A stretch of 39,662 bases of DNA, taken from NCBI GenBank assembly GCA_012515535.1, contig JAAYYF010000048.1, positions 1 to 39,662 on the forward strand, in the 5' to 3' direction. How positions within the stretch are numbered: position 1 is the first letter of the stretch; each line of letters begins with the position of its first letter. Below are positions 23,574 to 29,514 of this stretch, piece after piece. The position numbers and the translations under genes are program-made. Source of the DNA: Deinococcales bacterium. GTDB taxonomy: Bacteria > Deinococcota > Deinococci > Deinococcales > Trueperaceae. A model generated the notes under the pieces. That model had not been told where the DNA came from and ran no database searches. It saw only the letters and a list, made by a program, of their open reading frames with translations.

Positions 23574-23619
23574 TCGCGTTGGGGCATGCGTCGCCTGCGG
23601 TCCGCACGTGCGGGCGGCC

Positions 23620-23687
23620 GGGGCGGGTGTCGGGCGGCCCTTGAGCACGGCAGCGGTCGTGAGACCGGGCCGCCCGACACCCGCCCC
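23620..23687. terminator. 21-bp perfect hairpin between leuS and mreC
   Basis: Arms 23620-23640 and 23667-23687 are perfectly complementary over 21 bp with a 26-nt loop. The loop holds a small GGTC/GACC hairpin. Convergent genes on both sides suggest a bidirectional terminator, but the stem is unusually long. The palindrome CCGCACGTGCGG lies just before it (23602-23613). Confidence 0.5.
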
Positions 23688-23739
23688 ACCCCCACGCGAC
23701 GCCCCGCCCACGACGCGGGCCCGAACGGAGAACCGAACG

Positions 23740-24522
23740 CTACTGCGGCGCCAGAAGCACGACCTGCCGCAGGGTGGCGAGCTCCACCGACGGCCGCACC
23801 AGGAAGCTGTGCCGGAGGTCGTTGGGGTCCGGCGGCAGCACCTCCGCCACCTCGCCCAGCCGCACCCCCGCCGGGAAGAGGCCGCCGTAGCTGGAGGTCT
23901 CCACCACGTCGCCGACCTCCACGGGCTCGTCGAGGATGAAGCGCGTCACGCGCACCAGGCCGCCGGCGTCGCCGACCGCCACCCCCTGGCCGCCCTTGCC
24001 GCGCACCGTGACGCCCACGCGCGACTGCGGGTCGAGCACGGTGCGCACGACGGCGCTGCGGCTCGCGACCTCGGTGACGATGCCGACGAGCCCCGCGGGC
24101 GCCGTGACCGGCATGTTGCGCTGCAGCCCGGCGCTGGCGCCCAGGCCGACGCGCAGGCGCGCGACCTCGGGGCCGGTGTCGCCGCCCACCACGGGGGCGG
24201 TGGCCACCACCGCCGGCGACTGGCTGCCGCGCACCTGGCCCGCCAGCTCCAGGCGCTCCACCTCCAGCTCGAGCGCGCGCTGGCGCTGCTCGGCGAGGGC
24301 CAGCTCGGCCTGCAGCCGCGCCACCTCCTCGCGCAGCTCACGGCGGTCGACGGCGCTCTCGAGGGTGAGGCGCACGTTGACGCCGGCGCGGTGCAGCAGC
24401 TCGTGCGGTAGCGCCACGGCGGCGGTGAGGTCGGCGGGCACGCGCCCCACGAAGGCGGTCACCAGGAAGGTGGCGAGCCCCAGGGCGACGAAGACGTACC
24501 AGGCGCGCAGCAGGCTAGACAA
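23740..24522 (-). CDS. mreC: Rod-shape-determining protein MreC
   Basis: A 260-residue part of the elongasome that links MreB to cell-wall synthesis. A short N-terminus and one membrane helix (about residues 6-26) are followed by a coiled coil (about 55-95, REEVARLQAELALAEQRQ) and the paired beta-barrel domains (VTAPAGLVGIVTEVASRSAVVRTVLDP, VRGKGGQGVA). Start is TTG at 24522, overlapping the maf stop by 8 nt, with GGGGGTG upstream. maf-mreC is a common bacterial pair. mreB and mreD are not in the window. Confidence 0.9.
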   Translation of the reverse strand: MSSLLRAWYVFVALGLATFLVTAFVGRVPADLTAAVALPHELLHRAGVNVRLTLESAVDRRELREEVARLQAELALAEQRQRALELEVERLELAGQVRGSQSPAVVATAPVVGGDTGPEVARLRVGLGASAGLQRNMPVTAPAGLVGIVTEVASRSAVVRTVLDPQSRVGVTVRGKGGQGVAVGDAGGLVRVTRFILDEPVEVGDVVETSSYGGLFPAGVRLGEVAEVLPPDPNDLRHSFLVRPSVELATLRQVVLLAPQ

Positions 24523-26901: not shown

Positions 26902-28044
26902 TCAGGCCCCGGTACGCCGCCGCGGCAGGCGCGCGAGGCGCGCCAGCAGCTCGCGCCACGCCCGTAGCCCCACGGCCAGCGAACCAGGGTCGACCCACTC
27001 GTCGAGGCGGTGGGCGTTGCCGCCGCGGTAGACGCCGAACGCCAGCGCCGGCAGGCCGGCCGCCATGGCGGCGTTGGCGTCGGTGCTGCCTGGCGCCGCC
27101 ACCAGCTCGACCCCGACCGCCTCGTAGGCGCCGCGCGCCGCCGCCAGCAGGGCGCGGTTGTCGACGCTGCCCGCCGGGCGGTCGCCCACCTCGATCAGCT
27201 CCAGCTCGGCCTCGGAGGCGGCGGCCGCCTCCTCGATGGCCGCCAGCGCGGCGCGCTCCAAGCGCGTCAGCGCCTCGGGGTCGACGCTGCGCAGGTCGAG
27301 GTTGAAGCCGGCGCGCTCGGCGATGGCGTTGATGCTGGTGCCGCCCCACACCTGCCCGACGTTGAGGCTCGAGCGCGGCTGGCGCGGCACGTGCAGCTCG
27401 GCCAGGCGAGCGATCGCCGTGCCGGCGGCGTGGACGGCGCTCGGCGAGGGGTAGTCGCCCCACGAGTGACCGCCGGCGGCGCGGAAGCGCGCCTCGTAGC
27501 GGCGCGAGCCCACCGCCTGGTCGGCGACCGAGCCGAGGTAGCCGTCGAGCGCCACGAACAGGTCGTGGTCGGCTCCCAGGCGCGCCACCGCGTGGCGGGC
27601 GCCGCGCAGGTCGCCCAGCCCCTCCTCGCCCACCGTGGCGACCAGGGTGAGGTGCGGGCGCGGGCCGTCGCCCGGCGCCTGCACCCAGCGGGTCAGGACC
27701 GCCAGCGAGGCGGCGTTGTCGCCGAGGCCGGCGCCGACCCAACGCTCGGCGTCGCGGCGCACGCGCACGTCGACGCTGGCCTCGAAGACGCTGTCGAGGT
27801 GGCAGGCCACCAGCACGCGCGGCCCCGCGCCCGGCAGCGTGGCCACCACGTTGCCGACCTCGTCGAAGCTGGGCGTCAGGCCCGCCTCGCGCCACAGGCC
27901 CGCCACCAGCTCGCCGCGGGCGCGCTCGGCGCCGGTCGGCGCCGGCGTCTCGGCGACGCGCACCAGCAGCTCGCGCAGCGCGCCGTCGTGCTCGGCGTCG
28001 CCCGCCTGCCGCTCGCGCGCGGCCGACCTCCGTCCCACCTTCAC
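26902..28044 (-). CDS. M20-family metallo-hydrolase (peptidase/deacylase)
   Basis: A 380-residue zinc hydrolase. Visible ligands are H82 and D84 (ACHLDS), D109 (GLGDNAAS), E140-E141 (VGEEGLGD), an Asp near 163 (VALDGYLG), and a C-terminal His (GNAHRLDEW, about 350). The dimerisation domain starts near [18 protein letters not shown]. It most resembles peptidase T/carboxypeptidase-like members; the substrate cannot be told. GTG at 28044 overlaps the response regulator stop by 4 nt (GTGA), so the two are translationally coupled, which is an unusual partnership. Convergent with rnhA. Confidence 0.82.
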
Positions 28045-28712
28045 TTGTTGCCGTCTTGCAGCGTCGCGATCCCTTCGCGCAGGGCGTAGAGCGCCGCCTG
28101 GGTGCGGTTGTTGAGGCGCAGCTTCGAGAAGATCTCGGACAGGCGGTTGCGCACCGTCTTCTCGGAGACGCCCAGCGCGTCGGCGATCTCCTGGTTGGTG
28201 GAGCCCTGCGCCAGCAGGCGCAGGATGTCCTCCTCGCGCTCGGTGAGCTCGCTGATGGTGTGCTCGGGGTGGCTGGGGAGGTCCAGGTCGCCGAGCTTGT
28301 GGAACTCCTCGAGGATGGAGGCGGCCATCTCGGCGTTGAGCAGCGTCTCGCCGGCGGCTACGCGCCGGATCGAGTCGACGAGCTCGTCGGCGCCGGCGTC
28401 CTTGAGCATGTAGCCACGGGCGCCGACCTTGACGGCCTCGAAGACGTAGCGGTCCTGGCGGTACATGGTGAGGATGATGACCGGGATGTCGGGCTGCTCC
28501 GCGAGGATCGCCTTGGTGGCGGCCACGCCGTCCAGCTCGGGCATCTGGATGTCCATCAGCACCACGTCGGGGCGGGTCTCGAGCGCGTAACGCACGGCCT
28601 CGCGGCCGGTGGAGGCCTCGCCGATGACGCGGAAGTCCTCCTCGGTCTCGAGGATGCTCTTGAGGCCCTGCCGGAACATGGCGTGGTCGTCGCACAGCAG
28701 CAGGCGGGTCAT
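28041..28712 (-). CDS. NarL/FixJ-family response regulator
   Basis: A 223-residue two-component transcription regulator. The receiver domain (1-120) has the acidic pair DD at 8-9, phosphorylatable D54 ([13 protein letters not shown]), the Thr in ILTMYRQ, and the Lys in [11 protein letters not shown]. The LuxR-type HTH (about 150-215) reads [39 protein letters not shown]. No histidine kinase is nearby, so its partner lies elsewhere. The ATG is 6 nt after a TACCAT box on the coding strand and lacks a Shine-Dalgarno, so it is probably leaderless. Coupled to the downstream M20 gene. Confidence 0.94.
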
Positions 28713-28718
28713 GGGTAG

Positions 28719-28724
28719 ATGGTA
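28719..28724 (-). promoter_or_regulatory. -10 box of the response regulator gene (leaderless)
   Basis: TACCAT on the minus strand, 6 nt before the ATG at 28712. It sits 25 bp from the divergent -10 box of the dsRBD gene, so the two promoters are back to back. Confidence 0.45.
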
Positions 28725-28748
28725 GCGCAAAGGCCGGTAGCGGCGTGG

Positions 28749-28754
28749 TACCCT
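28749..28754 (+). promoter_or_regulatory. -10 box of the dsRBD gene
   Basis: TACCCT preceded by GG, the same hexamer as for ffh. Transcription would start at about 28761, at the foot of the hairpin 28762-28855. The -35 is weak. Confidence 0.4.
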
Positions 28755-28761
28755 CCGAACC

Positions 28762-28855
28762 GCAGCTGCCGGGCACGCGGCGCCGACCACGTACGCACCT
28801 CACCGCCGCACATGGCCGGTGCGCACGCGGTCGGGGCCGGGCGCCCGGCAGTTGC
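28762..28855. other. Long imperfect hairpin in the leader of the dsRBD gene
   Basis: Arms 28762-28799 and 28818-28855 are complementary over 38 positions in perfect register (no bulges). Thirty-two are Watson-Crick, one is G-U, and five mismatch (28775, 28777, 28782, 28789, 28793). The 18-nt loop is 28800-28817. The outer 13 positions pair without a break. As RNA this is a duplex of more than three helical turns, ending 89 nt before the start codon of a dsRNA-binding-domain protein. A binding or RNase III processing site is the natural inference. Confidence 0.7.
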
Positions 28856-28944
28856 ACGACCGGTCGCCGCCGCACGGCTCGACGGGCGCCGGCGAGGACC
28901 CACATGACCTACGCAAGCCGATACCCAACACCCAAGGAGGGCGC

Positions 28945-29514
28945 ATGGCCCACCCCAAAGGGCTCCTGATCGAACGGGCGCAGAAGCTCGGGCTAGAGAG
29001 GCCCGAGTTCGCCACCGTGAAGACGGGGCCAGAACACGAACCTTCGTTCCTCTCCGACGTGATCCTCGCCGGCGAGGTCCTGGGCACCGGCCAGGGCGGC
29101 TCGAAGAAGGACGCCGAGCGGGCGGCCGCCGAGGAGGCCCTGGCGGCGCTGGATAAGCGCACGCCCGGCGCCTCGTCGGGCCGTGACGCGCGCGACGAGC
29201 GGCGCGGCCGGGGCGGCCGCGCGGCCGCGAACGCGAGCTCGGACGCTGACGCCGCGGCCACCGACGCCGTGCAGCCGGCCGCCGAGGCGGCCAGCGAGGA
29301 GGACGACGAGATGGACGAGGAGTTCACGGGCCCGTGGCCGATGTTCGACGACCTCCTGGCCAGCGTGGTGGAGGTCGCCGAGCGCCGCATCGCCTCCGAC
29401 CTGCGTGGCGACGCCGCGCGCCACGCCATCCGCGACTTCTCGCTGGCGCTCTACAAGGAGCTGCTGGCCAACCTGGGCGAGGTGGTCGAGGAGGACGAGG
29501 ACGAGGACGGCTAG
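28945..29514 (+). CDS. Stand-alone double-stranded-RNA-binding-domain protein
   Basis: A 189-residue protein. Residues 4-69 form a canonical dsRBD: PKGLLIERAQKLGLERPEF (helix 1), the loop GPEHEPSF at 28-35, strands ending VLGTGQG, and the phosphate-binding GSKKDAE at 52-58 leading helix 2. There is no RNase III catalytic domain. A low-complexity acidic/Ala/Arg linker (71-125) follows, then a helical C-terminal region (FTGPWPMFDDLLASVVEVAE to LANLGEVVE) that I do not recognise, with an acidic tail. ATG at 28945 follows AAGGAGG. The leader holds a long RNA hairpin, which suggests that the protein may bind its own mRNA. Confidence 0.85.
   Translation: MAHPKGLLIERAQKLGLERPEFATVKTGPEHEPSFLSDVILAGEVLGTGQGGSKKDAERAAAEEALAALDKRTPGASSGRDARDERRGRGGRAAANASSDADAAATDAVQPAAEAASEEDDEMDEEFTGPWPMFDDLLASVVEVAERRIASDLRGDAARHAIRDFSLALYKELLANLGEVVEEDEDEDG

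Follow-up and report, generated by a model that had tools for sequence, protein, structure and literature searches.

Autoregulation of Escherichia coli RNase III (rnc) through the leader of its own mRNA was reportedly described by Bardwell in 1989, and the rncO element of the same enzyme is said to have been treated by Matsunaga in 1996. The locus considered here resembles rnc in the hairpin that precedes the coding region of a dsRBD protein and in the feedback proposed to run through the protein's own substrate, whereas the rnc protein cleaves its leader and the protein encoded here has no nuclease domain. A related case, as far as it is summarised in a review (PMC7509114), is the stem-loop sensor in the 5' UTR of E. 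coli RNase E (rne). The common ground is a conserved leader stem-loop and possible sensing of its own level by a protein of RNA metabolism; RNase E, however, acts by cleavage, and it belongs to another protein family and another RNA. According to the same summary, the 5'-terminal stem-loop of E. coli ompA stabilises its mRNA (Emory 1992, via PMC7509114). Here too the mRNA is predicted to open with the stem, but the role in stability is shown for ompA, whereas the present case combines a predicted leader with an unusually long stem that is found at one gene only (congener genome, see below). On the protein side, the dsRBD fold and the RNA-contact motifs are shared with TRBP, Xlrbpa, DRB4 and HYL1, from which our protein differs in being bacterial and in its make-up of a single dsRBD, followed by an acidic linker and by a predicted helical hairpin at the C-terminus that Pfam does not recognise. 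We found no report in the literature of a stand-alone dsRBD protein in Deinococcota. The locus would represent a known kind of control, in which an RNA-binding protein regulates itself through its leader, and the unusual part would be the setting: the dsRBD stands alone, and the bacteria lack RNase III.

The window, i.e. the whole stretch of DNA that was analysed (39.7 kb), contains between a divergent response regulator gene and the gene of the dsRBD protein an inverted repeat with two 38-nt arms and an 18-nt gap (table 1). The 38 arm positions comprise 32 Watson-Crick pairs, one G-U pair, three A-C and two other mismatches, which recovers exactly the 33 paired positions and the three A-C mismatches counted in an earlier, sequence-only reading; its distance of 89 nt from the end of the hairpin to the ATG of the dsRBD gene was obtained as well. 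That reading had also placed the hairpin far beyond the other intergenic regions, terminators excepted, and no other inverted repeat in the window scored as well. RNA folding of positions 28749-28947 gave z = -4.80 on the plus strand and -4.35 on the minus strand, and none of 200 dinucleotide shuffles folded as well on either strand. Among the Rfam covariance models run over the window only a tRNA scored above the gathering score, and the hairpin matches no known family. Two simple roles were rejected: sequestration of the Shine-Dalgarno sequence AAGGAGGG, because the hairpin is predicted to fold without pairing to it, and termination, because the hairpin lies between two divergent genes and a U-run is absent.

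Table 1. Positions of the features at the dsRBD locus, numbered from the first letter of the window
Feature	Position	Strand	Details
NarL/LuxR-type response regulator, divergent	28041..28712	-	PF00072 + PF00196
-10 element TACCAT of response regulator	28719..28724	-	6 nt from regulator ATG
Extended -10 promoter element of dsRBD gene	28746..28754	+	TGGTACCCT; motif TGnTAnnnT
Predicted transcription start	28761..28762	+	first hairpin base pair; 7 nt after -10
Leader hairpin, predicted 5'-terminal	28762..28855	+	arms 28762-28799 / 28818-28855
Recurrent internal defect, 5' side	28775..28777	+	A28775.C28842 + G28777.G28840, 14-16 bp from stem base
Shine-Dalgarno sequence of dsRBD gene	28934..28941	+	AAGGAGGG
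Stand-alone dsRBD protein, 189 aa	28945..29514	+	dsRBD residues 4-69; C-terminal helical hairpin 132-180

The dsRBD call made from the sequence was confirmed by a match to Pfam dsrm (PF00035; E 2.6e-14, 54 bits against a cut-off of 23) and by the fold predicted with AlphaFold2, in which the pLDDT is above 90 over most of the domain and for which the best Foldseek match among solved structures is 1di2, a dsRBD-dsRNA complex. The domain has the alpha-beta-beta-beta-alpha order, the GPxH loop and the KKxA helix of dsrm members, and the motifs of dsRNA binders are kept, the GPxH loop as GPEH and the KK/KRxAE helix as SKKDAE. The NCBIfam RNase III model TIGR02191 matched exclusively with its dsRBD part (positions 152-218 of 219). 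The canonical dsRBD and the acidic linker are followed by a conserved C-terminal segment (window positions 29304-29514), in which FxGPWPxF...LYK...LGEVVEED is conserved, no Pfam match is present and two helices are predicted; judging from the model, this helical hairpin is a possible dimerisation domain. Homologues of the protein occur in 46 of 61 relatives, and 48 of the 61 genomes of the order contain one dsRBD each, which is the sole dsRBD wherever it is present.

Almost all bacteria possess RNase III, Deinococcus being the textbook exception (PMC8708148), and Deinococcus radiodurans is known to lack the enzyme (PMC8708148, PMC3531473). The RNase III domain PF00636 was detected in none of the 61 genomes of the order in a search that recovered it in 8 of 14 control genomes, and PF14622 had no match in the window's own genome. 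This agrees with the published absence from D. radiodurans and extends it beyond Deinococcus to all searched genomes of the order. One family of the order (f4), which we take to be Thermus-like, apparently lacks any dsRBD too. Since the RNase III domain is missing from all 61 genomes, self-cleavage of the leader as in E. coli is excluded, and any feedback must therefore act by binding. The analogy with RNase III drawn in the sequence-only reading consequently stands in one part, a structured leader before the protein's own dsRBD gene, and falls in the other, that of self-cleavage.

The window belongs to the Trueperaceae (Deinococcota). Hairpins are present at the equivalent place in most high-GC members of this family, where the structure is retained while its sequence differs: four groups (A, B, C and D) are unrelated in sequence, a fifth (E) is a weaker hairpin at one locus, and the groups roughly track the tree of the regulator. 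Group A, which comprises the genus of the window and two more, has 13 identical base pairs at the base of the stem and a variable middle; the stem reaches up to about 45 pairs in group C; and in group D it has 17-19 Watson-Crick pairs and lies immediately 5' of the Shine-Dalgarno sequence. From the end of the stem to the start codon there are 12-17 nt in group D and 36-134 nt in groups A, B and C. In the low-GC members of the family and in the outgroups the long hairpin is absent at the locus, and because several relatives retain the dsRBD protein without it, a feedback loop would be clade-specific.

Compensatory changes, whose absence in relatives would have refuted the sequence-only reading, were found in alignments of six sequences each, evaluated with shuffle statistics that ignore relatedness: 6 pairs and 9 cells in group A (2.7 and 3.3 after shuffling) and 10 pairs and 11 cells in group C (3.0 and 3.1), values that were reached in 0 of 500 shuffles in either group. 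Alignments slid out of register pair far less than the true register in both groups. The compensatory changes give good, but not final, support for a selected structure. All arm alignments of groups A and D share a G.G mismatch about 16-18 bp into the stem, counted from its base; in groups B and C a bulge of 2 nt takes a comparable position. The contig of L030 / L047 (G018:C172) breaks off within the hairpin, of which it retains the 3' arm alone; the stem may break assemblies, and in two genomes without a match to the dsRBD protein (G027 and G034) the gene might be missing through the same break.

The position of the hairpin in the transcript was judged from the promoter. The hexamer TACCCT (28749-28754) is preceded by TG, together forming the extended -10 element TGGTACCCT, and the distance from the end of this element to the stem base is 4-7 nt in all 18 loci of groups A, C and D. 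Because this is the usual spacing of a start site, the dsRBD mRNA should begin with the stem in these three groups, and the dsRBD mRNA most likely has the hairpin at its 5' end, as the sequence-only reading had predicted from TACCCT with a start near 28761. The promoter motif of group B and of group E / locus L014 stands 76-163 nt 5' of the stem. With respect to the strand, the plus-strand RNA is more stable than the minus-strand RNA in 19 of 23 hairpins, the window's own hairpin being the opposite, and G-U outnumber A-C combinations by 47 to 26 when cells are counted (leaning to the plus strand) and by 29 to 21 when distinct positions are counted (p = 0.32), so that the strand is not assigned from this comparison.

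The rarity of the hairpin was assessed in the complete one-contig genome of a congener, of which 2.52 of 2.92 Mb (86%) were scanned. The homologous hairpin ranks second by score among 89; within the top 12 of these its 37-nt arms are the longest (next 29 nt) and its energy of -66 kcal/mol is the lowest (others -24 to -52), and its score of 19.5 exceeds the maximum of 16.0 in random sequence of equal size and dinucleotide content. The same 2.52 Mb contain 475 extended -10 sites (TGnTAnnnT) on both strands, and a long 5'-terminal stem follows just one of them, that of the dsRBD gene (score 23.5, next 12.5). The covariance model of group A found one site per genome and none elsewhere in 39 family genomes. 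A dispersed repeat or mobile element was rejected, as DNA and covariance-model searches both led to a single site per genome; a second match of 23 bp in the window's own genome falls in an apparent coding region and is without an inverted repeat. The hairpin is a real feature, it is selected, and it is sited at one gene. Elsewhere in the window, the second-longest short-loop hairpin (23610-23697; 31-nt arms, 87% complementary) lies between mreC (23740-24522, minus strand) and the next feature of that strand.

What function does this structure perform? We somewhat favour the view that the hairpin is a non-cleaving cis operator, bound by the dsRBD protein and limiting the synthesis of that protein. 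By binding the 5'-terminal duplex of its mRNA, the protein would lower its own expression through a translation block or altered mRNA decay, leaving the RNA uncut. In group D the bound protein would adjoin the Shine-Dalgarno sequence; in groups A-C it would be placed 36-134 nt upstream and might act via mRNA decay or, more speculatively, via oligomerisation through the C-terminal helices. On the one hand, the length of the stem, its retention in groups of unrelated sequence, the compensatory changes, the placement of the -10 element, the single site, the status of the protein as the sole dsRBD, its fold and dsRNA-binding motifs and the adjacency in group D all speak for an operator. On the other hand, the distance of the stem from the ATG in groups A, B and C, the unsequestered Shine-Dalgarno sequence, the several relatives that have the protein but no long hairpin, the remote promoter motif in group B and L014 and the count of G-U and A-C by distinct positions speak against it. 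The transcription start, the binding of the protein to the leader and the negative sign of the feedback are what we infer.

As RNase III is absent, free duplex RNA in the cell could titrate the dsRBD protein off the leader, whose state could then reflect how much protein there is relative to cellular dsRNA. Only tentatively is this extended to a circuit of dsRNA homeostasis, in which the sole dsRBD would coat or chaperone dsRNA and the 5' duplex would read the free protein, so that synthesis tracks the dsRNA load. For duplex RNA in cells without RNase III, the locus directs attention to a dsRNA-binding protein that stands alone and is conserved across the family and beyond, and suggests that a cis-encoded RNA structure could measure the activity of such a protein. 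It is unusual for a 5'-terminal duplex to be this long and to occur at one gene only, the covariation indicates selection, and the proposed feedback is directly testable.

The main rival, which we regard as rather unlikely, is that the 5'-terminal stem merely stabilises the mRNA against decay that depends on the 5' end (RNase J or pyrophosphohydrolase), after the manner of E. coli ompA, the dsRBD protein being uninvolved. The predicted transcript starts with the stem, RNase J is encoded in the genome and requires an accessible 5' end (PMC3997798), and 5'-terminal stem-loops are known to stabilise mRNAs (PMC7509114), all of which would suit such a role. However, a short 5' stem would probably suffice for this purpose and the present one is much longer, and it is found just at the sole dsRBD gene. 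A general stabilising device would be expected at more genes, since many would profit from it, yet in the congener the other sites of the 475-member set have no comparable stem.

It is improbable that the hairpin is itself the product, a stable duplex RNA acting in trans as ligand, cofactor or decoy of the dsRBD protein, with the gene expressed by read-through. The compact duplex has its own promoter motif, its structure is better conserved than its sequence, and there is no RNase III to degrade it; but no terminator-like U-run follows the stem, a good Shine-Dalgarno sequence and ATG lie at a modest distance downstream, and in group D the stem directly adjoins the ribosome-binding site.

Even less probable is an element acting as DNA, namely a cruciform between divergent promoters or an inverted repeat to which the divergent response regulator would bind. 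Its location between two such promoters would fit, as would the stem base GCAGCTGC, which is palindromic by itself and invariant within group A, and the lack of a significant difference between G-U and A-C by distinct position. Binding sites of response regulators are, however, far shorter than the 35-48 bp of the arms, the hairpin sequence is unrelated between groups although the regulator is 76-90% identical in most loci, and most of the hairpins (19 of 23) are more stable as plus-strand RNA.

That the structure belongs to a minus-strand RNA, either a leader of the regulator or an antisense RNA, is very unlikely: the window's hairpin is slightly more stable on that strand (-77.6 against -75.0 kcal/mol), but the -10 element of the regulator lies between the hairpin and the regulator's start codon, at 5-7 nt from the latter in most loci, and its position would exclude the hairpin from the regulator mRNA, contrary to the minus-strand option that the sequence-only reading had kept. 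The regulator mRNA is predicted to be leaderless, as are the mRNAs of about 60% of the genes of Deinococcus deserti, such mRNAs being common in Deinococcus (PMC9031893). The regulator is divergent from the dsRBD gene in nearly all loci of the family and also in another family of the order (f3), and a functional link between the two genes is possible. The spacer between them is usually 60-350 bp long; at one locus (L010, G014:C367) it extends to 790 bp and is AT-rich (31% GC).
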